Positions 1 through 13,074 of a stretch of DNA of 64,000 bases are shown one piece after another. The notes below the pieces were generated by a model. It saw only the letters and a list, made by a program, of their open reading frames with translations. It ran no database searches and was not told where the DNA came from. The DNA comes from Halobacterium rubrum (lineage in GTDB: Archaea; Halobacteriota; Halobacteria; Halobacteriales; Halobacteriaceae). The number at the start of each line of letters is the position of its first letter. Position 1 is the stretch's first letter. The stretch is taken from positions 248,001 to 312,000 of the forward strand of contig NZ_JAJQQZ010000001.1 in the NCBI RefSeq assembly GCF_021729015.1, written 5' to 3'. Made by a program: the position numbers and the translations under genes.

Positions 1-1109
1 ATCTGGAAGACGACCGCGAGGTAGCCCATCACCATCAGGATGAGGTTGAACGTGGTGCCGAGCGCGAACGCGATGTCGGCACTGGGCTTGGTGTACCCCA
101 CGAAGTAGTCCATCGTGTACGGGAGCACGATGAAGAACGCGAACAGCACGCCGAGCACGGCGAGCACCAGACTCGTCGGAACCGAGGCGAGGTAGTAGCG
201 GCGCTCGTTCTCGTAGAGCCCCGGCCGCATGAAGGCGTACGACTCGTAGACGAACGCCGGCAGCGCGACGACGAGGCCCGCGAGGCTGGCGACCTTCAGC
301 TGCGTGATGAGCAGCTCCAGCGGGTGGTAGACCCGTGGGTCGATGGCTTCCCCGCTGGGCAACACCTGGTTCCAGATGGTGGTGATGAGGCCCTCGGTGA
401 GCGGGAAGACGATGACGCTGACCAGCCCCGCGATGGCGATGACGATGGCGAGGCGCTTGACCATCTCCTCGACGTGTTCGCCGAGCGGCGCCTCCTCGTC
501 GGTCTCGGGGGCGTCCATGTCGAGGCCGCCGGTGCCCGCGGGTTCGGGCGCCGAGTCGGCCGTGATGACGCTGTCCTCGCTGTCGTCTCCCGTCGGTGTC
601 TCGTAGCTGGCGGGGGTCGGCCCCTCGACGTCGTCGTGGGCGTCGGGGCCGTCGGACTGGTGGTCCTCGTCCGCGAGCAACTGGGGGTCGGTGGCGGGCG
701 ACTCGCCTTCGGCGAGGTCCGGCGGCACTCGGCCCTTGGTGCCCCACTCCCACTCGTCGACGTCGCCGTCCCCGCTGTCTGCGTCCTCTGCCGGTTCGAC
801 GGCGGACTGGAGGCCGACCCAGTCGACGCGGCCGTCGCTGGCGGCATCGCCACCGTCGGCGTCGCTGGCGGTGTCGTCGTTCGCTCCGGCGTCGTCGTTG
901 TCGCTGTCGGCGTCGGCGACGTGACGCACCGCCTGCGTCGGGCTGGTGGCGTCCTCGCTGTCGTCAGTGCCGTCAGCACTGCCGCCAGCGCTGTCGTCGC
1001 TGATGTCGTCGCCCTCGACTCGACGGACGGCGGACTGGAGGTCGTCCCAGTCGTCGCGAGACGGACGTCCCTCGGCGAGGTCGCGTCCGCCGTCCGGTTC
1101 TTCGGCCAT
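1..1109 (-). CDS. tatC1: Sec-independent protein translocase TatC (single-domain), 3' end outside window
   Basis: Membrane core of the twin-arginine translocase, which exports folded proteins. The ATG is at 1109 and the reading frame stays open to base 1, so the C-terminus is missing. The first ~200 residues are a very acidic, low-complexity cytoplasmic extension rich in Asp, Ser and Ala. The TatC core begins near residue 205 (GEHVEEMVKRL), followed by hydrophobic segments and the family signature around FVYESYAFMRPGL. The acidic extension is typical of haloarchaeal TatC of the TatCo type. A TATA-like sequence (cctataac on the minus strand) lies ~27 bases before the ATG, implying a leaderless mRNA. 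It diverges from the double-length tatC next door. Haloarchaea send most of their secretome through Tat, so this is likely essential. Confidence 0.93.
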   Translation of the reverse strand, partial: MAEEPDGGRDLAEGRPSRDDWDDLQSAVRRVEGDDISDDSAGGSADGTDDSEDATSPTQAVRHVADADSDNDDAGANDDTASDADGGDAASDGRVDWVGLQSAVEPAEDADSGDGDVDEWEWGTKGRVPPDLAEGESPATDPQLLADEDHQSDGPDAHDDVEGPTPASYETPTGDDSEDSVITADSAPEPAGTGGLDMDAPETDEEAPLGEHVEEMVKRLAIVIAIAGLVSVIVFPLTEGLITTIWNQVLPSGEAIDPRVYHPLELLITQLKVASLAGLVVALPAFVYESYAFMRPGLYENERRYYLASVPTSLVLAVLGVLFAFFIVLPYTMDYFVGYTKPSADIAFALGTTFNLILMVMGYLAVVFQ

Positions 1110-1199: not shown

Positions 1200-3398
1200 A
1201 TGAGTAGCTCCGGCTCGGACATCGTCGACCCGGGAACGGCCCGCGCAATCGACTCCGGCCGGGAGACGCTGGGGGTACTGCTTTCGGCCGCTCAGGACCG
1301 CCTCCAGCACGTGTTCATCGCGTTCGTCGTCGGCCTGCTCGGCGGCATCTTCCTGATGCGGCTGTTCATCTGGCCGGCGCTCGAGGCCGACCTCCTCGAG
1401 GCCGAAGCGCGGGTCATCGCCCAGACGCCGTTCGACGTCATCCTGATGCAGGTGAAGATCGGGCTGTTCGCGGGTGTCGGCGCCGCGATTCCCGTCCTCC
1501 TCTACCACGCCCGGAAACCACTCCGCGACCGGGGGATCATCCCGGACGTGACGGTCAAGCGCTGGCACGTCGGCGTCGTCGGCCTGCTGTGTGCCGGTCT
1601 GGCCTCCATCGGCGTCGTGTACGCGTACTTCCTGTTCTTCCCGCTGATGTTCGACTTCCTCGCCGGGAACGCCGTCGGCGCGGGGCTCGCACCGAAGTAC
1701 TCTATCGTGAAGTGGACGGAGTTCATCTTCTTCCTCGCACTGTCCTTTGCGCTCGCCGCCCAGCTCCCCATGTTGATGTCGGCGCTCTCGTACTCCGGTG
1801 TCGTCCCCTACGAGACCTTCCGCGACAAGTGGAAGTACGCCGTCATGGGCATCTTCGCGTTCGGCGCGTTCTTCTCGCCGCCGGACCCGTTCACGCAGAT
1901 TCTCTGGGCGAGCCCGCTGATTCTGCTGTACGGCCTGAGTCTCTACCTCTCGAAGGTCGTCGTGACGTTCAAGCGGGGCCGCGAGCACGTCGATATCGCG
2001 GGCGTGTTCGGCGAGTTCTGGAACCGCATCCTCGGCGTCGCCGTCCTCGGGTTCGCGGGCGGCTACGCCCTCGGCATGTACGACGGGATCGGCGCGTTCA
2101 ACGACGGACTGGCGTTCATGGGGTCCTCGGTGCGGGTGCCGACGGCCGGTGAGGTGCTCGGCGTTCCGCCCGAGACCGGCTTCCTCGTGCTCGGCGTCGC
2201 GTTCGGCGTTCTGGCGCTGCTGGCGGCGATGCTGTACTACGTCTACGTCGCGGTCGACCGGGCGGCGCGAGCAGTCGCCGACGAACGCCGCCGTCGTCCG
2301 GACCCGGCCGCCATCGACCTCGACGAACTCGACGCCGCCGGCGTCCGGGCCGCGCCGCCCGAAGCGTTCGCGTCGATGACCGAGGACGAGGCGCTGGCGA
2401 CGGCGAAACGCGCGATGGACGACGGCGACGACGAGAAAGCCCAGCTCGTCCTCGACCGATTCGACGAGGCCCAGGAAGCAGCCGCCGAGGAAGCCGAGGA
2501 CGCGGCAGCCGCCGAAGGTGCCGCTGGCGGCGACGGTGACGGCGACTCGAACCCGGTCCAGAGCACGGCCGCCGGGATGATGGACGCCTTCACCGAGGAG
2601 GAGACCACCGAGGACGACATCGGCGGCTACTACTACGACCTCCGGTTCATCTTCGACAGCCTGCGGTCGCGGGCGTTCCGCCTCGTCGGGACGTTCATGG
2701 CCGTCATGGTCGCCATCTTCGGGTGGCTGTACTACGGCGGGTTCGGGAGCCTGCGCGACGACTTCATCGCGCGCATCCCGGCAGAAGTCCAGCCGGACGC
2801 CGCCACCTGGCCGATCACGCTCCACCCCGTCGAGGCGCTCGTGTTCCAGGTGAAGATCTCGGTCGTGCTCGCCGCCATCGCCGTGCTCCCGATGATCGTC
2901 TACTACCTGTGGCCGTCGCTGGCCGACCGCGGCTGGGTGACCGGCGACCGCCGAACCATCCTCGTCTGGGGCGGCAGCATCGTCGGCGCTCTCGCACTCG
3001 GCAGCTACGTCGGCTACGGCTTCATCGCCCCCGAGGTCATCTCCTTCCTCGTCTACGACGCGGTCCGGGAGGGCATGATCATCAGTTACACCGTCAGCAC
3101 GTTCGCGTGGCTGGTGTTCTTGCTGACCGTCGGCATCGGACTGCTCGCCGACATCCCGGTGACGATGGTGCTGTTCCACCTCGGCGGCATCGTCTCCTTC
3201 GACACGATGCGCGAGCGCTGGCGCGTCCCCGTGCTCGGAACGTTCGCGTTCTCCGCGCTGGTCACCCCGGACAGCCTCTACACGATGCTGCTCGTCGCGC
3301 TCCCCATCGTCGCGATGTACCTCGTGGGACTGGGCCTGCTGTACCTCGTCACGCTCGGCGGCCGGCGCGGCGGCTCCGCGGAGCCCCTCGGGGAGTGA
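1200..3398 (+). CDS. tatC2: Double TatC translocase (TatCt type, two fused TatC domains)
   Basis: At 732 residues it is about twice the length of a normal TatC and has two complete TatC units. The first spans residues ~25-270 (LQHVFIAFVVGLLGG, then FQTP-like and FGAFFSPPDPF segments). A linker (residues ~340-475) contains one further hydrophobic segment and a charged Asp/Glu/Ala-rich stretch. The second unit spans ~480-720 (SRAFRLVGTF, then TFAFSALVTPDS). Fused TatC proteins with an extra central membrane helix pair are known in haloarchaea and are thought to work beside the single TatC in Tat export. The ATG at 1200 is well placed behind a TATA-like box. It lies just upstream of several secreted proteins with RR signal motifs, but the link is positional only. 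Confidence 0.93.
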   Translation: MSSSGSDIVDPGTARAIDSGRETLGVLLSAAQDRLQHVFIAFVVGLLGGIFLMRLFIWPALEADLLEAEARVIAQTPFDVILMQVKIGLFAGVGAAIPVLLYHARKPLRDRGIIPDVTVKRWHVGVVGLLCAGLASIGVVYAYFLFFPLMFDFLAGNAVGAGLAPKYSIVKWTEFIFFLALSFALAAQLPMLMSALSYSGVVPYETFRDKWKYAVMGIFAFGAFFSPPDPFTQILWASPLILLYGLSLYLSKVVVTFKRGREHVDIAGVFGEFWNRILGVAVLGFAGGYALGMYDGIGAFNDGLAFMGSSVRVPTAGEVLGVPPETGFLVLGVAFGVLALLAAMLYYVYVAVDRAARAVADERRRRPDPAAIDLDELDAAGVRAAPPEAFASMTEDEALATAKRAMDDGDDEKAQLVLDRFDEAQEAAAEEAEDAAAAEGAAGGDGDGDSNPVQSTAAGMMDAFTEEETTEDDIGGYYYDLRFIFDSLRSRAFRLVGTFMAVMVAIFGWLYYGGFGSLRDDFIARIPAEVQPDAATWPITLHPVEALVFQVKISVVLAAIAVLPMIVYYLWPSLADRGWVTGDRRTILVWGGSIVGALALGSYVGYGFIAPEVISFLVYDAVREGMIISYTVSTFAWLVFLLTVGIGLLADIPVTMVLFHLGGIVSFDTMRERWRVPVLGTFAFSALVTPDSLYTMLLVALPIVAMYLVGLGLLYLVTLGGRRGGSAEPLGE

Positions 3399-3528: not shown

Positions 3529-4284
3529 TCAGCGGTCGTCCGGATTCTGCTTGCCGTCGACGACGGTCTCGTTGCTCCCCGTGACGAATTTCGGGTTGAA
3601 GTACGTCTTGTTGCGTTCCTCGACGTACACGGCGACGAACTTCGGGCCGCCCTCGACCTGACTGTTGAGCTTCGCCGTCGGGTCGACTTCGACGGAGCCG
3701 TTTTCCGTGAAGTCGCTCGACGACCCTCCCTCTGCCTTCGTCTCGGTCCAGTAGGTGACGTTCACCGTCTCGGCGTCCGTCGCACCGAACTCGAAGTTCC
3801 CGGCGCCATTGAACTGCGGCCCCGGCTCCTGTCCGGAGCCGCCACAGTCCAGTTCGAACGAGCGGGTGTCTCCCGAGATGGCGGCTGTGACGCCCTCACC
3901 CTCGACGGTCACGGAGACGGTGATGGAGACGTCCTCGTTCCCGTGACAGTGGATGTCGGCCTCGATGGGCTCTTTGTCCCCCGTGCCGATTTCGGGCTTC
4001 GAGACCTTCGAAACGGTGACGTCGTCGTCGCCGGTCGTGACCGTGACGTTCGTCACCGACGCGTCGCTCGGCAGGCGGTTCTCCACCGTGACGAGGGCGA
4101 CGCGCTCGGTACCCGTCACGTCGACCGTTTCGGACTCGTAGCCGACGAGCGCCTCGTCGTCGCTGGCGACCGAGACGCTGACGCCACGGTCGGCGGCGAC
4201 CGCGCTGAACCCCACCGACCCGAACACGAGCCCGGTGCTGGCGACGGCGGCGAGCACGATGCTTGCGAGTTTGAGTTTATTCAT
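3529..4284 (-). CDS. Secreted protein with DUF1102-like N-terminus
   Basis: 251 residues, with a signal peptide (MNKLKLASIVLAA, then FSAVAADRG) and an otherwise Asp/Thr/Val-rich beta-type body containing several NxT/S sequons. No family is recognised with certainty. The segment right after the signal (ADRGVSVSVASDDEALV) matches the first strand of the DUF1102 proteins at 5.3-8.7 kb (ADRSVSVEVADDASAFL), and it too has a patch resembling VENRLPSDASVTNVTV, so it may be a divergent member of the same surface-protein group. It lacks the RR motif of the others. The start overlaps the 3' end of the upstream wHTH gene by 8 bases, so the two are almost certainly co-transcribed and translationally coupled. 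Confidence 0.75.
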   Translation of the reverse strand: MNKLKLASIVLAAVASTGLVFGSVGFSAVAADRGVSVSVASDDEALVGYESETVDVTGTERVALVTVENRLPSDASVTNVTVTTGDDDVTVSKVSKPEIGTGDKEPIEADIHCHGNEDVSITVSVTVEGEGVTAAISGDTRSFELDCGGSGQEPGPQFNGAGNFEFGATDAETVNVTYWTETKAEGGSSSDFTENGSVEVDPTAKLNSQVEGGPKFVAVYVEERNKTYFNPKFVTGSNETVVDGKQNPDDR

Positions 4285-4861
4285 CGTCGAGCTCGGCCGG
4301 TGTGGGGCCGCGGCCGAGCGCCGTCCGCTGCGCGTAGTGGCGGTGGACGACGGCGGAGACGGCGAACGCCGCGACGACGGCGACGCTCCACGCGAGCTCC
4401 GGGAGCGCCGTGAACGGCCACGCGCCGAGCGCGACCGCCGCCAGCAGCGTCGCCGCGACGCCGGACAGCCCGAGGTAGTAGTCGCTCCAGGGGATCTCGC
4501 GTCCCTTCACGACGTCCATGTAGACGCGGACGTCCTCGAGCGCGGGCGTCGGTTCAACGACCCCCCTGTTCTTGTCGAACGATACGACGCCGGCGTCGTC
4601 CATCTTGGGGAGGTGGGACTGCTGGAGCGCGGTGTACACGCGCTTGCGTTCGTCGTAGGACACCTCCGCGACAGTCTCGCCGTACTCCCAGGCGGCGACC
4701 TGCTCGGCGACGTCCCCCAGTTCGACCGGCTCCTCCCGTCCCTTGAGCATGTGGAGCGCGTAGCGCCGCCGCCGACTGGAGAGCACGTCGAAGAGCTCGT
4801 CCTCGGTCGGCTCCGGCGCCTCGCTCTGTTCCACGCCCCCCCGCTGACGTGTGGATGACAC
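4277..4861 (-). CDS. DUF7344-type winged-helix protein with two C-terminal membrane segments
   Basis: 194 residues. Residues ~18-110 form a wHTH of the haloarchaeal DUF7344 kind: LFDVLSSRRRRYAL at the start, an internal VELGDVAEQVAAWE helix, and the hallmark LQQSHLPKMDDAGVV followed by a short wing. Residues ~133-178 contain two hydrophobic helices (GLSGVAATLLAAVALGAW and WSVAVVAAFAVSAVV). This layout suggests a DNA-binding domain tethered to the membrane. It is the first gene of a two-gene operon with the secreted protein at 3529-4284 (8-base overlap), and it is divergent from the DUF1102 array, so it is a candidate local regulator of surface proteins. That role is inference. A TATA-like ATTTATTA lies ~30 bases upstream. 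Confidence 0.8.
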   Translation of the reverse strand: MSSTRQRGGVEQSEAPEPTEDELFDVLSSRRRRYALHMLKGREEPVELGDVAEQVAAWEYGETVAEVSYDERKRVYTALQQSHLPKMDDAGVVSFDKNRGVVEPTPALEDVRVYMDVVKGREIPWSDYYLGLSGVAATLLAAVALGAWPFTALPELAWSVAVVAAFAVSAVVHRHYAQRTALGRGPTPAELDDE

Positions 4862-5223: not shown

Positions 5224-5232
5224 CAATACTAC
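5224..5232 (+). promoter_or_regulatory. CAATACTAC box, copy 1
   Basis: Exact 9-mer CAATACTAC, 94 bases before the ATG at 5318. The same 9-mer occurs upstream of the genes at 8208 and 8979. It may be the TATA element of a transcript with a ~60-base leader, or an activator site. Confidence 0.5.
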
Positions 5233-5317
5233 TTACAAAGGGGGTGATGGGTCGAGTGAGCGCTCCCGGGGCGTGCGGTGCCCGAGGGAGTGCACGCAAA
5301 CGAGGTCAACGACAACA

Positions 5318-5923
5318 ATGCAACGTCGCAAATTCATCGCTGGCATGGGATCGCTCGCTGCCGCCGGGGCAGCTGGAATCGGTACGGGCGCGTTCACGAG
5401 TGTGCAAGCGGAACGCGATATTACGATCGAAACTGCGGGTGACGCGAGTGCATACCTAGGGATTTCCCCGGACTCCGACAGCCCCAACGCACAGTACGCG
5501 TCCACCAGCGACGACGGTACCGTGTCGCTGGATTTCACTTCGAACGAGAAAAATAGCGATACTGGCCTGAACGACGAGGCCAAGGTGAATATCGAAGACG
5601 TTCTCGAGATCACTAACAACGGCACTCAGCCCGTCTACGTTACCGTTATGGTTGAAGACAGTAGCGGGAACACGGGCCGTGATGTCGCGGGTCTTTCGGA
5701 GTTCGGTATCAGTGGCGACGACGATTACGACTTCGCACGGACGGCCGGTGATTACGACGGTGACAAACTTCCGGCTGGGGAGTCCGCTGGCATGGGCTTC
5801 TTCTTCAATTGGAACGGGAACAGCAGCTTCGGCGACGTGGTCAATGATATCGACACGATCACTCTCGTCGCCGCAGCGAGCAAGGACGAGCTCGAACGCT
5901 TCAAGCCTTCCCCGGATAGCTAA
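5318..5923 (+). CDS. DUF1102 surface protein 1
   Basis: 201 residues from the ATG at 5318. An in-frame start 45 bases upstream is rejected because the signal peptide begins at MQRRKFIAG. The signal has a twin-arginine pattern (QRRKF), a short hydrophobic Ala/Gly stretch, and a likely AxA-type cleavage after SVQA, residues ~28-31. The mature part starts ERDITIETAGDASAYL and continues with beta-rich sequence and the family hallmark ITNNGTQPVYVTV (~residues 105-117) and LPAGESAGMGF. This order (first strand, then N-G-T-x-P-V strand, then AGES turn) is shared by all DUF1102 neighbours and resembles the TasA/camelysin pattern. First gene of a likely operon with 5998 and 6648. Probable structural component of an extracellular fibre or matrix; that function is inference. 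Confidence 0.85.
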   Translation: MQRRKFIAGMGSLAAAGAAGIGTGAFTSVQAERDITIETAGDASAYLGISPDSDSPNAQYASTSDDGTVSLDFTSNEKNSDTGLNDEAKVNIEDVLEITNNGTQPVYVTVMVEDSSGNTGRDVAGLSEFGISGDDDYDFARTAGDYDGDKLPAGESAGMGFFFNWNGNSSFGDVVNDIDTITLVAAASKDELERFKPSPDS

Positions 5924-5951
5924 ATCAGTAATTCCCGCGCTGGCCCGCCAC

Positions 5952-5973
5952 GGCGGCTCGATTCCGCCGGTGG
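5952..5973 (+). promoter_or_regulatory. Leader hairpin of DUF1102 gene 2
   Basis: GGCGG-7-base loop-CCGCC followed by GGTGG, 46 bases before the ATG at 5998 and ahead of a Shine-Dalgarno-like gggggtaa. A nearly identical copy lies 47 bases before the next gene (6601-6622). Confidence 0.6.
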
Positions 5974-5997
5974 TTCCCAACACGGGGGTAAGAATCT

Positions 5998-6576
5998 ATG
6001 AAACGAAGAAACTTCATCGCGACACTCGGCTTGGCCACGACCAGCGGGGCGACGCTCCTGGGTACCGGTGCCTTCACGAGCGTCCAAGCCGAGCGAAGCA
6101 TCTCTGTCGCCGTCGCCGACGACGCCTACGCTTACCTCAGATTGAACGAGCGTGGGAAGGGTGAACGGTCCGAGACCGACGGCGGAACCCTGGAGTTCAG
6201 CATCCCGGGTGACGACGAGGGCGAGTACCCGACTGGAAACCCCACGGACCCAGACGGACTCGGAACTGATTCCGTCTACCGCTTCGGGGCGGATGCGGCC
6301 CACGACGAATCGGGCCTGTTCGCCGTTCGGAACCGAGGAACTCAGCCCGTCGAGGTGTACAGCACCCAGGGTTCCACCGAGGGCGTGCCGTCAGTCACGA
6401 TGTTTGACGTGGATTCCGGCGACCTGCTGACGGAGAGCAGCCCGTCGGCGCCACTCGGTGTCGGTGCCGGCCCGCTCGTCTGTGGCCTCGAAATCGACAC
6501 GCACGGCGTTCCGATTCAGGACGAGGCGTACGACGTTGATCTGACCATTAACGCGGTCGCGACCGACGGCGACTGA
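5998..6576 (+). CDS. DUF1102 surface protein 2
   Basis: 192 residues. The signal peptide begins MKRRNFIATLGLAT with a good Tat consensus (RRxFI) and is followed by GAFTSVQAERSISVAVADD, the shared processing site and first strand. Family landmarks are AVRNRGTQPVEVYS (~residues 110-123) and an acidic, Gly/Asp-rich body; no cysteine-based lipobox is seen. The start is fixed by the signal peptide and by the gggggtaa Shine-Dalgarno-like sequence 7-8 bases upstream, unusual in a genome with mostly leaderless mRNAs and consistent with an internal operon position. It lies 74 bases after gene 1 and 71 before gene 3. Likely exported and assembled outside the cell with its paralogs. Confidence 0.85.
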   Translation: MKRRNFIATLGLATTSGATLLGTGAFTSVQAERSISVAVADDAYAYLRLNERGKGERSETDGGTLEFSIPGDDEGEYPTGNPTDPDGLGTDSVYRFGADAAHDESGLFAVRNRGTQPVEVYSTQGSTEGVPSVTMFDVDSGDLLTESSPSAPLGVGAGPLVCGLEIDTHGVPIQDEAYDVDLTINAVATDGD

Positions 6577-6600
6577 CGGCCCACACTGGTCGGTTCTTTC

Positions 6601-6622
6601 GGCGGTTCGATTCCGCCGGTGG
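6601..6622 (+). promoter_or_regulatory. Leader hairpin of DUF1102 gene 3
   Basis: Second copy of the GGCGG-loop-CCGCC-GGTGG element, one base different from that at 5952-5973. The spacing to the ATG at 6648 is 47 bases, with ggggggtga directly before the start. Possible RNA-processing or translation-control element between operon genes. Confidence 0.6.
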
Positions 6623-6647
6623 GTCTTCCCTGCGTGGGGGGTGAACC

Positions 6648-7898
6648 ATGAAACGACGACAACTCTTGCTCGGTGTCGCGTCCGTCGCCGGAGCCGGCGG
6701 CCTGCTCGGGCCGGGCGCGTTCACGAGTGTGCAAGCGGACCGGAGCGTGAACGTCGAGGTGGCCGACGACGCGAACGCGTTCCTCGCGATGGAGCCGATG
6801 AACACGCCGAACGGTGACGAGTACGCGAGCGTGACCGCCGACGGCCTCGTCACGGTCGACCTCACGGAGACCGACGCTGGAGGCGACGGGCTCGGTGTCG
6901 ACTCGACGTACACGTTCGACGACGTCCTCCAGGTGACGAACCAGGGGACACAGCCCGTGTACGTCTGGGCGACATTCGCCGGCGGTGGCGACCTCGGGAA
7001 CGACGACATCTGGCTGTACCCGGACAGCGACCCGTCGACGAAGCTCAACGACGGGTCGAACAGCGTCGCGTACCTGCCAGTCGGCGAGTCGCTAGCCGTC
7101 GGCGTGCGCGTGAACACCGACGGGCTCGACGCCGCGTACGACCGCGACCTGACCGCGACCATCAACGCCAACGTCGACGACCAGGGGTCGAAGCCCAGCG
7201 ACCCCGGCGGTGACCCGATAGACGGGCCCGTCGACGGCCTCGTGAGTTACTGGCGGCTGAACGACCTCGACGGCTCCGGGACTGGAACGACCATCGACGC
7301 CGTCGGAAGCTACGACGGAACCGTCGAGGGGCCTGTGGGCGTCGCCGACGGCGTCGAAGGCGGTGGCGCCGCGGAGTTCGACGGCGACAACGACGTTATT
7401 TCGACGGACCTCAACATCGGTGCAGCCGGCGAGTCAGTGACGGTCGCTGGCTGGCTGAAAGCGCCGTCCGGGCAGGGAATCGGGAACAACCACTTCTTCC
7501 TGAGCAACTACATCGACCAGGGCCACGACGGCTTCTTCGCCATCGGGTCGAACGACGGCCAAGAGATGTTCTTCTGGACGCGCGACCCGAGCACCCAGAC
7601 CAGCAAGAAGACGGGCAGGACCGACGCAGCCTTCGACGGGGACTGGCACCACTACGTCGGCGTTCGGGATGCCGAGAACGAGGAAATCCGGTTCTACGTT
7701 GACGGGAGCTTCGTCGACAGCAAGAGTTTCCCGGGTGACGTCGCGATTCGAGACTCCGACTCGACGTTCGGGCTGATGCAGCACTACGACAACCGGTATC
7801 TCGAACGCTACGTGGACGCCGTCCGGGTCTACGACCGGGCGCTCACCGGCTCCGAGGTCCAGACGCTCTGCGACGTTCACGCCCCGTCGGCGGAGTAA
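6648..7898 (+). CDS. DUF1102 surface protein 3 fused to a LamG/concanavalin-like lectin domain
   Basis: 416 residues. Residues 1-30 are an RR signal (MKRRQLLLGVASVAG ... GAFTSVQADRS). Residues ~31-180 are a DUF1102 unit with VTNQGTQPVYVWA and LPVGESLAVGVRV landmarks. After a Pro/Gly/Asp linker, residues ~195-410 form a LamG-like jelly roll: GLVSYWRLND at its start, VTVAGWLKAP in the middle, DWHHYVGVRD and IRFYVDGSFV near the end. LamG domains bind carbohydrate or act as adhesive modules, so this looks like the sugar-binding or tip member of the array. A 28-base DNA stretch over the processing site (6712-6739) is identical to gene 1 (5385-5412), pointing to recent gene conversion. Last of the three-gene run. 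Confidence 0.85.
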   Translation: MKRRQLLLGVASVAGAGGLLGPGAFTSVQADRSVNVEVADDANAFLAMEPMNTPNGDEYASVTADGLVTVDLTETDAGGDGLGVDSTYTFDDVLQVTNQGTQPVYVWATFAGGGDLGNDDIWLYPDSDPSTKLNDGSNSVAYLPVGESLAVGVRVNTDGLDAAYDRDLTATINANVDDQGSKPSDPGGDPIDGPVDGLVSYWRLNDLDGSGTGTTIDAVGSYDGTVEGPVGVADGVEGGGAAEFDGDNDVISTDLNIGAAGESVTVAGWLKAPSGQGIGNNHFFLSNYIDQGHDGFFAIGSNDGQEMFFWTRDPSTQTSKKTGRTDAAFDGDWHHYVGVRDAENEEIRFYVDGSFVDSKSFPGDVAIRDSDSTFGLMQHYDNRYLERYVDAVRVYDRALTGSEVQTLCDVHAPSAE

Positions 7899-8207
7899 GA
7901 ACCCGGTTCACTTCTTCGGAGTACTCTCCTCGGTCCAACTGGCTCCCGCATTCTGCCGGCCCTCGATAGCGTGTCGTATTCGATTGAGCCCAATTCATCG
8001 TCGTGAGGACTGTCACCCGTCGTCTCTGATTCCTCCCGCCGTCGAACCGGTGGGGCAAGGATGTATATGGGAGGGCAGTGGCACGGTGACATCGTCTCAG
8101 CCTCCGGCTTAATCCGTTCAGTCGGTGCAATACTACGTCCATCCGTGTCCAAGATTCTGGCACGTCACCCGGAACAATCCGGACGTATTCAACGAGGCTC
8201 GAAACCA
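7899..8207. other. Intergenic region with second CAATACTAC box
   Basis: 309 bases with no convincing gene. The open frame that starts at 8061 is only an upstream extension of the next gene. A sequence near 8035-8050 (CCGCCGTCG...CCGGTGGGG) faintly recalls the leader hairpins at 5952 and 6601. The CAATACTAC box is at 8128-8136. Confidence 0.5.
8128..8136 (+). promoter_or_regulatory. CAATACTAC box, copy 2
   Basis: Exact 9-mer, 80 bases before the ATG at 8208. See the copies at 5224 and 8902. Confidence 0.5.
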
Positions 8208-8750
8208 ATGCAACGTCGCAAGTTTATCGCCGGGATGGGATCGCTCGCTGCTGCTGGAGCAGCTGGACTCGGAACGGGTGCGTTCACGACCGTGGAAGCC
8301 GACCGCAGCGTCTCCGTCGAAGTCGCCGACGACGCGTCGGCGTTCCTGATGTTCGACCCCGGGCTGAAGTCCTCGACCAACGACGTCTTCGCGTCCTACG
8401 AGGACGGCCTCCTGGTGCTGGACTTCGCCGAGACCGAGGTCGGCGGACAGGGTGTGAATCGCAATGCAGTCTTGCAGTTTGACCAGGTGTTCAAGCTCGT
8501 GACCCGCGGTACACAGGCGGTCAACATCTGGTTCGAGCACGACCTGCCGGGTGTGACGTTCTACCGGTTCGACCCGGACTCGAACAGCCTCGACGGGCCG
8601 GAAAACGCGAAGATCGGGCTCGCCAATGGCGGCCACATGAAGATCGGAGTCGAGATCGACACGACCGTCCCGGAGTTCGACGGCGTAGACGAACTGGACG
8701 GAACAGTCACGATTCACGTGAGTGCGGAAGACCCGACCGGGAGTGACTGA
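8208..8750 (+). CDS. DUF1102 surface protein 4
   Basis: 180 residues from the ATG at 8208. The first 25 residues, MQRRKFIAGMGSLAAAGAAG onward, are nearly the same as in gene 1 at 5318, also at DNA level, whereas the mature parts have diverged. This suggests recent duplication or conversion of the signal-peptide cassette. The mature start EADRSVSVEVADDASAFL is the standard first strand; LVTRGTQAVNIWF (~residues 98-110) replaces the N-G-T-Q-P-V strand. No lipobox, no membrane anchor. It has its own upstream region with a CAATACTAC box and may be the first gene of a second transcript running into the next gene and the signal peptidase. Confidence 0.85.
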   Translation: MQRRKFIAGMGSLAAAGAAGLGTGAFTTVEADRSVSVEVADDASAFLMFDPGLKSSTNDVFASYEDGLLVLDFAETEVGGQGVNRNAVLQFDQVFKLVTRGTQAVNIWFEHDLPGVTFYRFDPDSNSLDGPENAKIGLANGGHMKIGVEIDTTVPEFDGVDELDGTVTIHVSAEDPTGSD

Positions 8751-8901
8751 TTCGACGCGCTGCGTCGACGTCGGCCACGCTAGCTGACGTACTGAAACCA
8801 GTCTGGGCGTCCGGTGACGCGTTACGAATTCCGGGCCACCGAGTGCCCTTCTCCCGGTTGTTCCGGAGTACAGACCCTCCTTGACCTTGCTTCAAGCACC
8901 C

Positions 8902-8910
8902 CAATACTAC
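8902..8910 (+). promoter_or_regulatory. CAATACTAC box, copy 3
   Basis: Exact 9-mer, 77 bases before the TTG start proposed at 8979. It is found only upstream of members of the DUF1102 group in what I could read. Confidence 0.5.
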
Positions 8911-8978
8911 CCCCTAATCCCTCATTGTCCCGTCCAACTGACCGGGGCCGGTCGCTCGGCCGCCGGGGGGCACGTACA

Positions 8979-10478
8979 TTGACACGTCGACGACGGCGGT
9001 GGCTCGCACTCGCTGCGGCGCTCGCGCTGGCGGGGACGCTGGCGTTCCCGTCTGCAGCGGCGCCGCTGCTTGGCGGGCCGGTGGACACGACGACCGGTGA
9101 CGGCGTCGAGTTGCTGCCGGCCGAGGACAGCCAGTACGCGACGGTCGGGCCGGACGGCGAGCTGGCGCTGGACCTGACGCCGGGCGACGCCGGCCTGAAT
9201 CCGGGGGCGGTGACGGACTTCGGGGCGGTGTTCTACGTGCGGTACACCGGTGACCAGTACGCCGAGGTGTGGGTGACGGCCGGCTCGGAAGCGGTGTCGT
9301 TCGCGGTCGACGGGCAGCCGGCGGGGTCGGCGGCCCAGAATGTGCGAGTCGGGCCGGACGAGGTCGTGCCCGTGAGCGTGCGCGTGGACACGACCAGTGG
9401 GGACGACCTCGACGTCGGGGGGCTGACGGTGCATTCGCGGGTCGCCGAACCCGAGCGCGAGGCGGACGGCCAGACCGCCGAGAGGACGGCGGAGACGACG
9501 ACCGACTCGACCGACACGACCGAGGTGTCGGTGCCGGCGGTCCAGCGCCGGGGGACGGCGGCCGACGGGCTGACGTTCACGATGCTGACCCCGACGGCCG
9601 GCGACGCCCTCACTCTCGACACGGACGGGATGGTCGTCGCCGGTGAGCCCGAGCGCGGGGCGGTCCTGGAGTCGCTGACCGTGACGCCGGCGTCGGGCGA
9701 GGGGATGACCGTCGACGTCGAGCGGACGGCGGCCGACCCGGTGCCGGGTGAAGCCGTCGAGTCCCTCGGGGCGGTCCGCGTCGACGCCAGCACCGACGTC
9801 GACGCGGCGACGGTCCGGCTGGCGGTCGACGACGCGTTCCTCGCCGACGTGGCGGTCGACGACGTCGACGACCTGTCGCTCTACCGGCACGGCGGGGACG
9901 GTGAGTGGAGCGAGGTGTCGCTGTCGGCTGTCGCGGAGCGGAACGGTTCGACGGTCCTCGAGGGGTCGACCGGCGGCTTCTCGACGTTCGTGCTGGCGGC
10001 CGACCGCCCCACCATCGGCGTCAGTGCGGCGTCCGTCTCGCCGGCCACGGTGAGCGCGGACGGTTCCGCGACGGTGTCGGCGACGCTGCGCAACGACGGG
10101 CAGGCCGCCGGCGAACGGACGGTGCCGGTGACCGTCGGCGGCGAGGTCGTCGCCGAGCGCACCGTCGTGCTGGAGGCGGGCGAGACGGCGACCGTGACGG
10201 CGTCGGTGTCGCCCGGCCCCGGCGAGCACACCGTCTCGGTCGGCGGCGTCGAGGCCGGGACAGTGAGCGTCGCGGCTGACAAGGACGGCGAGGCGGGCGG
10301 CAGCGACGAGTCCGACGGCGACGCGCCGGCGACGGACAGCGGCGACGAGCCGGCCGAGAACGTGCAGTCCGAACCCGCCGGGTTCGACTTCGAGACGCTG
10401 GCCGGCGCGGGCGTGGCGGTGGCGGTCGTGGTCGTCGGCGTCGGCGCGCTCCGGCGTCGCCGCGGTGGGGAGCCGTGA
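8979..10478 (+). CDS. Secreted DUF1102-like protein with PGF-pre-PGF and CARDB-like domains and C-terminal anchor
   Basis: 499 residues using the TTG at 8979. The frame is open from 8814, but the signal peptide (RRRRRWLALAAALALAG...SAAA) begins right after this TTG, which is preceded by GGGGGG at a fair distance; the start is therefore probable, not certain. After the signal comes a DUF1102-like part (residues ~30-155; QYATVGPDGELALDL and FYVRYTGDQYAEVWV parallel gene 1). A Thr/Asp linker leads to a PGF-pre-PGF-type domain (~190-345; TFTMLTPTAGDALTL, LYRHGGDGEW, GGFSTFVLA) and a CARDB-like Ig module (~347-430). After an acidic stalk, FETLAGAGVAVAVVVVGVG plus RRRR forms a C-terminal anchor. 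Likely cell-attached component of the fibre system. Confidence 0.75.
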   Translation: MTRRRRRWLALAAALALAGTLAFPSAAAPLLGGPVDTTTGDGVELLPAEDSQYATVGPDGELALDLTPGDAGLNPGAVTDFGAVFYVRYTGDQYAEVWVTAGSEAVSFAVDGQPAGSAAQNVRVGPDEVVPVSVRVDTTSGDDLDVGGLTVHSRVAEPEREADGQTAERTAETTTDSTDTTEVSVPAVQRRGTAADGLTFTMLTPTAGDALTLDTDGMVVAGEPERGAVLESLTVTPASGEGMTVDVERTAADPVPGEAVESLGAVRVDASTDVDAATVRLAVDDAFLADVAVDDVDDLSLYRHGGDGEWSEVSLSAVAERNGSTVLEGSTGGFSTFVLAADRPTIGVSAASVSPATVSADGSATVSATLRNDGQAAGERTVPVTVGGEVVAERTVVLEAGETATVTASVSPGPGEHTVSVGGVEAGTVSVAADKDGEAGGSDESDGDAPATDSGDEPAENVQSEPAGFDFETLAGAGVAVAVVVVGVGALRRRRGGEP

Positions 10479-10566
10479 CGGCGACCGTGACCCGACCGCG
10501 ACAGCGCTCGACGGGCCACCCGTCGGAAGATACTTGCAGTCCTGACACGTCGGTGCCGGCGACCAG

Positions 10567-11727
10567 ATGACACCGCGTCGCGTACTCACGCTGACCGGGG
10601 AGGTGGCGGTGGTGCTCGTCGTCGTGGCGCTGGCCGCCGGTCAGGTGCTGGGCTACCCCGTCCTGCTGGGGTACGTCGAGACCGGGAGCATGGAGCCGAC
10701 ACTCGAACCGGGCGACGGCTTCGTCTCCGTGCCGGCACCGCTGGCCGGCGACGTCGAGGCGGGCGACGTGGTCGTCTTCCGAGCGGAGGAGCTTCAGGGC
10801 GGCGGGCTCACAACCCACCGCGTGGTCGGGGAGACCGACCGCGGATTCGTCACCAGGGGCGACGCCAACCCCTTCACCGACCAGGACGGCGACGAACCGC
10901 CGGTGAAGCGCGCCCAGATCGTCGCTCACGCCCTGCAGGTGAACGGCGAGGTGGTCGCCATCCCGAATCTCGGGACGGCCGTGACGGGGCTCCAGGACGC
11001 CATCGGAGACACGCAGCGGCGGGCGGCGGCCCTCACCGGGTCGCGGTCACTGCTGGGCACGCAGGGCCTGACGTACCTCCTGTTCGCGCTGTCGGCGCTG
11101 CTGTACGTCGTCGACCTCCTCATCGACGACGGCAGAGCCCGGGACCGCAGCCGGAGTCGGTCCCGGGACAGCGGCGTCTCGCCGGGGCTCGTCGTCGCCG
11201 CGCTCGCGGCCGTGCTCGTGGTGTCGGCGACGGCCGCGATGGTGGTGCCCGCCGGCACCGAACAGTTCGGGGTGGTGAGCGCGGAGTTCGAGTCCGAGAA
11301 CCCCACGGTCATCCAGCAGGGCGAGTCCTCGACGTTCGAGTACCGGGTGGCCAACGGCGGACTGGTGCCGGTCGTCTCCTACCTCGAGCCGGCCAGCGAG
11401 GGGGTGGCCGTCCAGCCGACCCGGTTGCGGGTTGGGTCGCGGGGGACGGCGACGGCCGACCTGACGCTGACCGCGCCCGAGGACACGGGCTACTACCGGC
11501 GGTACGTCACCGAGCACCGGTACCTGGCGGTGCTGCCGGTGTCCCTCCTGGACGCGCTGTACGACGTCCACCCGTGGCTCCCCATCGTGGCCGTGGACAG
11601 CCTGCTGGCGTCGGTCGTCGCCGTGCTCGGTCTCGTCCTGCTCCGGGGGCGTCGCGTCCGCGTGCGGAGCCGGGAGAGCCGTCACGGCCGGTCGACGTGG
11701 GCGCGCGTCCGCCGGCGCCTGCGGTGA
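10567..11727 (+). CDS. sipW: SipW-type signal peptidase I with C-terminal beta-domain extension
   Basis: 386 residues; usual SipW-type enzymes are ~170-200. Residues 9-35 are a membrane anchor. The S26B catalytic site is clear: GSMEPT with nucleophile Ser41, then THRVV with His84 in place of the bacterial Lys, and GDANPFTDQDG (~98-108) for the acidic residue. This Ser/His type is that of archaeal and ER signal peptidases. A second membrane segment lies at ~156-178 and a third at ~203-225. Residues ~228-335 form an Ig-like beta domain (STFEYRVANGG, TATADLTLTAPEDTGYY) and a last helix lies at ~340-362. The extension could hold or chaperone pilin-like substrates. Its position directly behind four to five DUF1102 genes suggests it matures them, as SipW does TasA. 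Confidence 0.88.
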   Translation: MTPRRVLTLTGEVAVVLVVVALAAGQVLGYPVLLGYVETGSMEPTLEPGDGFVSVPAPLAGDVEAGDVVVFRAEELQGGGLTTHRVVGETDRGFVTRGDANPFTDQDGDEPPVKRAQIVAHALQVNGEVVAIPNLGTAVTGLQDAIGDTQRRAAALTGSRSLLGTQGLTYLLFALSALLYVVDLLIDDGRARDRSRSRSRDSGVSPGLVVAALAAVLVVSATAAMVVPAGTEQFGVVSAEFESENPTVIQQGESSTFEYRVANGGLVPVVSYLEPASEGVAVQPTRLRVGSRGTATADLTLTAPEDTGYYRRYVTEHRYLAVLPVSLLDALYDVHPWLPIVAVDSLLASVVAVLGLVLLRGRRVRVRSRESRHGRSTWARVRRRLR

Positions 11728-11817
11728 CCCGGTCGTCCCGCGACGGTGGTCTCGTCGCGCCGCCGCTGCACTCAAACTATCGACACTTGTATGCCGTCGG
11801 GCGCAAGTGTACCGCGC

Positions 11818-13074
11818 ATGACAGGGGAGACGCGGTGGCTCCGCGCCAGAGCCTTCGCCGGGGAGTGGTTCACGGTGCTGGCGGCGGCCTTCGTGGTGCT
11901 CGCGCTCGCGGGCGGGTACGCCGCCGGGACGGCGTACGCGACGCCGGATACCGAGACGGAGCGACAGACGGTCGAGCACTGGGCGGTCTCGGGGGACTTC
12001 CAGCACTCGGCGACGGTGACCCGGGAGAACCCGGTGTTCCCGGTGGGAGCGACGCTGGACGACAGGTCGACGTACTTCGTGAGCGCTACGCCGGTCTTCG
12101 ACGGCACGTACACCGTCTCGTACAGCGACGCCGCGGCCGGCGGCACCGGGGAGCCGGTCGAGATGGCGGCGACGGCGACCCTCGTCCTCCAGTCGGCCAG
12201 CGAGGACGCCGTCTACTGGACGGACCGCGAGCAGGTCGCGGCCACGGAGGCGACGCTCGCCGACGGCGAGTCGGCGACGCTGTCGTTCTCCCTGAACGCC
12301 ACGCGGGTCGACCAGCGCGCGGCCGACATCCAGCAGGCACTCGGTGACACCGGCGGGGAGGTGTCCACGAGCGTCGTGGTCGACGTGAACGCGACGGGGA
12401 GCGTCGCCGGCACCGAGCGCGCGGTGACGGCCTCGCAGTCCATCCCCCTGCGCCTCGGCGGGTCGACGTACAGCGTCGGGGAGACCGAGACGGCTCGCGA
12501 GGCGGCGACGACCACGCGCACCGTCGAGGTCACGCAGTCCTACGGACCGTCTCGGACCGTCGGCGGGCCGCTCCTGCTCGTCGCCGGGCTCGCGGGGCTC
12601 GGCGCGCTCGCGGTGCTCCGGCGGCGCGACGCCCTCGCACTGACCGCCGCCGAGCGCGAGTACCTGGCGTTCCGCGACGACCGCGCCGAGTTCGACGAGT
12701 GGGTGGTGCGGGCGCGGCTGCCGCCGTCGGTCCACGACCGGGAGCGCGCCGACGCCGAGTCGCTGGCGGACCTCGTGGACTACGCCATCGACGCCGACGT
12801 CGGCGTCGTCGAGGACACCGGGACGGGGTCGTTCTACGCCGTCACCCGGGAGGTCGTCGTGGCGTTCGACCCGCCGGCCGAACCCGGTGCAGCCTCGCCG
12901 TTCGCCGCCGACGACGACGAGGACGCCGACACCGAGTCGCTGGCGGACCTCGTCGGCGGCGATGCCGACGACGGTGCGAACGGCGAGGAGAGCGGCGACG
13001 GTGCGACTCATCGACGGGACGCCGGCGACGCCCGCGAGGACGGCGACGCGCCGACAGTCGAGCCAGAAGACTGA
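11818..13074 (+). CDS. DUF5305 family membrane protein
   Basis: 418 residues from the ATG at 11818; an in-frame start 72 bases upstream adds only basic, non-conserved residues. One N-terminal membrane segment (~residues 20-42) is followed by an extracytoplasmic beta-rich region (~43-240) containing NATRV and VDVNATGS sequons, a second membrane segment (~248-270, LLLVAGLAGLGALAVL), and a cytoplasmic acidic tail with ERADAESLADLVDYAI. DUF5305 proteins are regularly found next to SipW-type peptidases in haloarchaea and I take it as the accessory subunit of this locus. Function unknown. It begins 91 bases after the peptidase gene, in the same direction. Confidence 0.8.
   Translation: MTGETRWLRARAFAGEWFTVLAAAFVVLALAGGYAAGTAYATPDTETERQTVEHWAVSGDFQHSATVTRENPVFPVGATLDDRSTYFVSATPVFDGTYTVSYSDAAAGGTGEPVEMAATATLVLQSASEDAVYWTDREQVAATEATLADGESATLSFSLNATRVDQRAADIQQALGDTGGEVSTSVVVDVNATGSVAGTERAVTASQSIPLRLGGSTYSVGETETAREAATTTRTVEVTQSYGPSRTVGGPLLLVAGLAGLGALAVLRRRDALALTAAEREYLAFRDDRAEFDEWVVRARLPPSVHDRERADAESLADLVDYAIDADVGVVEDTGTGSFYAVTREVVVAFDPPAEPGAASPFAADDDEDADTESLADLVGGDADDGANGEESGDGATHRRDAGDAREDGDAPTVEPED

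Follow-up and report, generated by a model that had tools for sequence, protein, structure and literature searches.

The window analysed here, a stretch of 64,000 nucleotides from contig NZ_JAJQQZ010000001.1 of Halobacterium rubrum, is proposed to harbor, between positions 3529 and 13074, a tafi-type gene cluster whose products form a donor-strand-complemented surface pilus; a probability of roughly 0.8 is assigned to this interpretation. Haloarchaeal Tat-fimbriae ('tafi'; Tat, twin-arginine translocation) are reportedly the subject of work by Galeva et al. (iScience 2025, 28:111793). In NCBIfam, the system is represented by the families TafA, TafC, TafE and TafF (NF052520–NF052523). The DNA of the window is of the G+C-rich haloarchaeal kind (60–74% G+C). 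A first-pass annotation of the region 5224–13074 had described an array of DUF1102 proteins with its own SipW-type signal peptidase and had proposed a matrix-fibre system. All open reading frames named by it were located at their positions in an ORF check of the window, and its interpretation was partly supported. Neither the Tat route nor the tafi system (TafA/C/E/F, 9P0A) was named in that annotation, and the TafC-like and DUF7344 genes, both encoded on the minus strand outside the region it covered, were likewise absent from it (Table 1).

Tat signals were recognized on the four pilins encoded from positions 5318, 5998, 6648 and 8208 (RRKFI, RRNFI, RRQLL and RRKFI, respectively), each followed by a Gly/Ala-rich core and the sequence GxGA. 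All four share the start GxGA↓F[TS]xVxA[DE]R, in which the arrow marks the predicted cleavage site. A profile of the mature pilins (A1) yielded six matches in the 3.07 Mb genome, every one of them within the locus, and the shared pilin feature is therefore not attributed to chance. Among relatives matching from profile position 1, alanine precedes the mature Phe in 83 of 83 sequences, as part of the motif [TS]GAF in 80 of these; moreover, the twin arginine is kept in 84 of 87 pilin relatives. The processing site formerly assigned to five secreted proteins, and the first strand assigned to at least four of them, hold for these four, but not for the protein encoded from 8979, whose signal ends in AAA↓P and which matches the profile only from position 31. 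The term DUF1102 array was likewise found to apply in part: the Pfam family DUF1102 (PF06510, cut-off 22.2) was matched below its cut-off by the products of 6648 (20.8) and 8208 (19.2), while the Pfam scan returned no match to it for those of 5318 and 5998. As judged from sequence comparison, the relation of the pilins to DUF1102 is real yet remote. The LamG domain ascribed to one member was confirmed in the third pilin.

Each of the four pilins singly matched the PDB entry 9P0A 'Pilin' (Table 1), and the mature-pilin profile retrieved the same entry at an E-value of 5.5e-20, in agreement with the earlier assumption that fibre subunits are encoded here. For the 8208 pilin, an AlphaFold2 (AF2) monomer model (mean predicted local distance difference test value, pLDDT, 79.8) was compared with known structures, as had been suggested for TasA and the archaeal bundling pili. 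The first match was 9P0A, 'Structure of Natrinema sp. J7-2 Tafi pilus' (E 8e-7, TM 0.56), followed by the Pyrobaculum bundling pilus 7UEG in second place, the Sulfolobus 0406 filament in third and, thereafter, chaperone-usher pilins; neither TasA nor camelysin ranked within the top 50. The proposed kinship with archaeal bundling pili was thereby upheld. In an alignment of 53 sequences, the invariant or nearly invariant columns (R8, F1, V4, A6, D17, A20 and N74) lie mostly within residues 1–20. Since this conserved stretch cannot be placed in the monomer, residues 1–16 of the 8208 model being an unplaced low-confidence coil, its donation to a neighbouring subunit is to be expected.

The protein encoded from 8979, which resembles TafF, carries a Sec-like signal and has neither the GAF site nor the first strand. 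Its match to the A1 profile is restricted to positions 31–145 (E 3.4e-11), and profile–profile alignment with the pilins by hhalign (98.3%) starts at column 33. In named genomes left out of profile building, the match began at or before profile position 8 in 93 of 96 pilins and in 0 of 29 anchored proteins, for which it started at positions 17–33. A family model of the 8979 protein retrieved a bona fide TafF at an E-value of 3.8e-19. Of the parts previously attributed to this protein, the CARDB-like one (25.9, cut-off 22.7) and the membrane anchor were recovered, while the PGF-pre-PGF part stayed sub-threshold (21.3 versus 28). Its description as an anchored base protein fits insofar as it is anchored and base-like; it is not a full DUF1102 subunit, but a pilin domain devoid of the donor strand.

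The complementary arrangement was observed for the TafC-like protein. It matched NCBIfam TafC with residues 12–134 only (E 1.7e-13) and the pilin profile at positions 1–26 only, the remainder representing a shorter immunoglobulin (Ig)-like body. In the AF2 model of its mature N-terminal part (pLDDT 79), a free N-terminus precedes a seven-strand fold, the best matches of which were complete Ig-type domains and not pilins. Because an iterated search with the TafC-like protein drifted into all pilins via the shared N-terminus, only genes adjoining DUF7344 were used as its relatives. The locus seems to hold an acceptor without donor (TafF-like) as well as a donor without open acceptor (TafC-like), which suggests that these proteins represent the two fibre ends.

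The peptidase encoded from 10567 exceeded the threshold of the archaeal signal peptidase I model TIGR02228 (54.1 versus 51.85 bits) and remained far below the cut-off of the Bacillus-derived NCBIfam SipW model (30.5 versus 190 bits). Its former classification as SipW-type is accordingly retained in the sense of a dedicated enzyme of the endoplasmic reticulum (ER) type, but not in that of SipW proper. The catalytic residues Ser41, His84 and Asp99 do not vary across 43 relatives. Four hydrophobic segments were located, at residues 6–24, 168–186, 209–227 and 340–358, and the last two of them flank an Ig-like stretch; SipW is not known to carry an Ig domain. A sequence search for solved structural relatives of the peptidase returned none. 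As the genome encodes a second signal peptidase of 272 amino acids elsewhere, the enzyme of the cluster is regarded as an additional, dedicated one. The DUF5305 protein listed in the first-pass annotation was verified by its PF17231 match.

Of 292 Halobacteria genomes, 239 contained a relative of the peptidase, and DUF5305 was likewise detected in 239; comparing both lists by eye, the two occur together in 232 genomes, each alone in 7 and neither in 46. Within the genus, pilins, peptidase and DUF5305 are encoded together in six of ten genomes and are all missing in the other four. Furthermore, 57 long loci from named genomes, which were fetched by means of the peptidase alone, contained DUF5305 in 57, DUF7344 in 52, TafC-like proteins in 50 and pilins in 49 cases. 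Plasmid records contributed only relatives annotated as 'hypothetical protein' or 'signal peptidase I'. A bona fide tafi locus (L022), in which TafA, TafC, TafE and TafF all exceed their cut-offs, comprises TafA, DUF7344, TafC with LamG, a 381-aa peptidase of the same architecture, TafE, TafF and DUF5305, and its gene set matches that of the window.

Like the tafi system, the window combines twin-arginine pilins that have the same processing site with genes for TafC-like and TafF-like proteins, a peptidase, DUF7344 and DUF5305, all within a single cluster. It differs in encoding four pilins instead of TafA and TafE, in carrying LamG on a pilin and not on TafC, in the PGF-pre-PGF-like and CARDB parts of its TafF-like protein and in a TafC-like protein without the twin arginine. 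Since no window protein exceeds the cut-off of TafA, TafC, TafE or TafF, the locus is considered a variant. The Natrinema sp. J7-2 pilin 9P0A is homologous including its Tat signal, with E-values down to 3e-15, and is the best structural match; however, the second half is divergent, and identity over the structural alignment amounts to 24%. For the Pyrobaculum pilus 7UEG, the structural similarity of the 8208 model (E 1.2e-4) is accompanied by only 11% identity, and no sequence-level match to it was found.

A rhomboid-type protease is encoded in 52 of 121 loci, in one copy each and mostly between the TafF-like and peptidase genes, with GxSG and HxxxN kept in nearly all. The locus in the window is devoid of it; a relative in the same genome (L180:5120-5965) resides approximately 170 kb away between two DUF7344 genes, and in genome G126 the rhomboid is placed similarly, beside a DUF7344 gene. 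According to our own count over 26 genomes of the family, full-length peptidase (E < 1e-70) and rhomboid (E < 1e-30) are present together in 13, each alone in 1 and neither in 11.

Genomes of the same phylum outside the Halobacteria (1.3–2.2 Mb; loci L175–L179), possibly belonging to the Archaeoglobi, encode DUF7344, DUF1102 pilins and the peptidase-Ig protein in a row. Unlike the sub-cut-off pilins of the window, these proteins are full DUF1102 members (up to 149 bits), and they possess Sec-type signals, with no twin arginine in any of the pilins listed. Given this Sec version, the system would be the older element, and the Tat route an alteration introduced in halophiles. At L175, one 522-aa pilin-domain protein also bears a VWA-like domain. 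At L177:7030-7533, a short pilin-like protein without donor strand (profile positions 33–144) adjoins the peptidase, which corresponds to the TafF-like position in halophiles.

Based on these findings, a sequence of events can be sketched for the pilus. The pilins would fold in the cytoplasm, exit via Tat and remain tethered by their signal peptides. Cleavage at GA↓F by the peptidase would then release the conserved strand at the N-terminus (FTSVxADRxVxV) for insertion into the groove of the following subunit. As a strand donor whose body is complete in itself, the TafC-like protein may start the fibre at its outer end; the TafF-like protein, which acts as an acceptor and bears a membrane helix at its C-terminus, may receive the final strand and anchor the fibre base. 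Carbohydrate or surface binding could be contributed by the pilin with LamG, and the Ig domain of the peptidase could make up the site of assembly together with DUF5305. Assembly order and end roles are held with far less assurance than the pilus itself and are regarded as tentative, at somewhat below even odds.

The idea of a matrix fibre in the strict sense, with archaeal TasA/camelysin orthologues matured by a SipW orthologue to yield biofilm fibres, appears unlikely when set against this evidence. A Ser/His-type peptidase of weak SipW similarity (30.5 bits) would agree with it, as would the alanine/aromatic processing site, which resembles that of TasA (Phe at P2'). The Bacillus system, too, has a dedicated archaeal-like signal peptidase. 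The N-terminal position of the donor strand in TasA and the designation of the Pyrobaculum bundling pili, the second structural match, as TasA-like (PMC9674648) point in the same direction. However, no match to TasA or camelysin (Peptidase_M73) was obtained in the Pfam, NCBIfam or PDB profile searches, and the Tafi pilin ranked first by every route, the structural comparison included. Moreover, the window proteins are Tat substrates, whereas the TasA/SipW system depends on Sec, and the peptidase scored far under the SipW cut-off. The direct kinship with TasA and camelysin suggested by the first-pass annotation was thus not recovered.

Still a little less probable is the view that the cluster encodes non-polymerising surface adhesins, secreted or lipid-linked, i.e., Tat-exported monomers matured by a private signal peptidase. 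Several paralogues, one of them equipped with LamG, would suit such a function, as would AF2 monomers of reasonable confidence and the fact that no filament has been demonstrated for this species. It is opposed by the homologous pilin 9P0A, the structure of which was solved as a filament, by a cluster content equal to that of tafi loci and by the location of the highest conservation in an N-terminal strand which remains unplaced in the monomer and would not be needed by a monomeric adhesin. A further objection concerns the processing step only: an ordinary signal peptidase might cut six residues downstream, at VxA↓[DE]R, F-T-S-V-x-A then being part of the signal. Although V-x-A fits a type I site and the motif is conserved, that site is situated about ten residues beyond the hydrophobic core, and A↓F is found in 83/83 pilins matching from profile position 1. 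In addition, 188 of the 215 residues of the 9P0A sequence are contained in the structure, and the A1 profile aligns from F28. If the other 27 residues are missing from the front, the mature start would lie at F28, as deduced from chain lengths and not from coordinates, in agreement with cleavage at A↓F and against the downstream V-x-A. The downstream cut is accordingly rated as improbable, on a par with the TasA/SipW orthologues.

Several points weigh against the proposed donor-strand pilus. The best NCBIfam scores in the window all remained below the respective cut-offs (TafA 37.4/190, TafE 72.3/155, TafC 50.4/410 and TafF 20.9/420 bits), and which of the four pilins is the major one cannot be named. 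Filaments have not been observed in this organism. Strand donation between subunits is deduced from the free N-terminus and from structural relatives, and the polarity model is built on profile matches and two AF2 monomer predictions of moderate confidence (mean pLDDT of about 79–80). The roles ascribed to the TafC-like protein (cap or tip), to DUF5305 and to the Ig domain of the peptidase are guesses.

Tat-fimbriae as such are already known. New aspects are an unusual set of subunits, the TafF-like protein as a pilin domain without donor strand, the TafC-like protein, which according to its model keeps the strand on a complete Ig fold, the co-occurrence of the rhomboid with the peptidase and the Sec version outside the Halobacteria. 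Among the papers searched, none named DUF1102 and none was found for 9P0A; parts of what is called new here may already stand in the tafi and 9P0A publications. Taken together, these aspects could amount to a complete scheme for an archaeal donor-strand pilus: a TafC-like starter that only donates, pilins that both donate and accept and are freed singly by an Ig-bearing peptidase, an anchored TafF-like terminator that only accepts, and a rhomboid with a possible part in shedding or remodelling the anchored fibre. The whole would be older than the Tat route of halophiles, Tat representing a later switch from Sec. This comprehensive scheme is possible, but clearly less probable than the pilus itself.

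If correct, DUF1102, DUF5305 and DUF7344, all of which are families of unknown function, would be tied to one pilus system in most of the sampled Halobacteria (239/292 with a peptidase relative). The results bear on the question of how Tat-exported pilins assemble, in which direction, and how the fibre attaches to the archaeal cell. The split between acceptor-only and donor-only proteins leads to a simple, testable prediction of fibre polarity, and the linked rhomboid and the Sec cluster outside the Halobacteria offer two further handles.

Table 1. Features of the tafi-type cluster (window positions) and examples of the rhomboid-type protease from other loci.
Feature	Position	Strand	Remarks
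TafC-like protein, 251 aa	3529..4284	-	Sec-type signal (no RR), donor-strand motif GFSAVAADRGVSVSVASDD, then Ig-like body and C-terminal region; candidate for the cap or tip of the fibre
DUF7344 protein, 194 aa, probable DNA-binding regulator	4277..4861	-	PF24035 111.6 bits; two C-terminal hydrophobic helices (130-148, 150-168)
Tat-signal pilin 1, 201 aa	5318..5923	+	Predicted cleavage GTGA↓FTSVQAER, mature from 5393; NCBIfam TafE 3.9e-20 (sub-cut-off); PDB 9P0A E 3.6e-13
Tat-signal pilin 2, 192 aa	5998..6576	+	Mature from 6073; TafE 1.3e-11, TafA 1.5e-8 (both sub-cut-off); PDB 9P0A E 1.6e-8
Tat-signal pilin 3 with C-terminal LamG/ConA-like domain, 416 aa	6648..7898	+	Mature from 6723; Laminin_G_3 8.3e-18; TafE 2.1e-17; PDB 9P0A E 8.4e-12
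LamG/ConA-like lectin-fold domain of pilin 3, residues 246-405	7383..7862	+	Best stretch of Pfam PF13385
Tat-signal pilin 4, 180 aa	8208..8750	+	Mature from 8283; TafE 6.5e-19; PDB 9P0A E 3e-15; AF2 model matches 9P0A and 7UEG
TafF-like anchored protein	8979..10478	+	Sec-type signal, pilin domain without donor strand (9126-9428), PGF-pre-PGF-like and CARDB-like parts, C-terminal membrane helix
S26B (ER/archaeal/SipW-type) signal peptidase, 386 aa	10567..11727	+	Extracytoplasmic Ig-like domain fused between membrane helices; TIGR02228 54.1 bits
DUF5305 membrane protein	11824..13074	+	PF17231 1.8e-53; two hydrophobic segments; putative assembly accessory
Rhomboid-type protease, examples	L063:7265-8173, L064:7240-8088, L099, L100, L106 and others		

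The start codons of two genes are uncertain, the frame of the 8979 gene being open from 8814 and that of the 11824 gene from 11746. A single TatC gene (window 1–979, minus strand) and a TatC-TatC fusion (1200–3398, plus strand) adjoin the Tat-dependent pilus cluster. A conserved link to tatC was rejected as a general feature, since tatC adjoins the cluster in only three genomes (that of the window and, within the genus, G126 and G003); in three further genomes a distance of approximately 49–122 kb separates them. The frames of DUF7344 and the TafC-like protein share eight bases (window 4277–4284), and because of this overlap the two genes probably have one transcript in common, divergent from that of the pilin genes.

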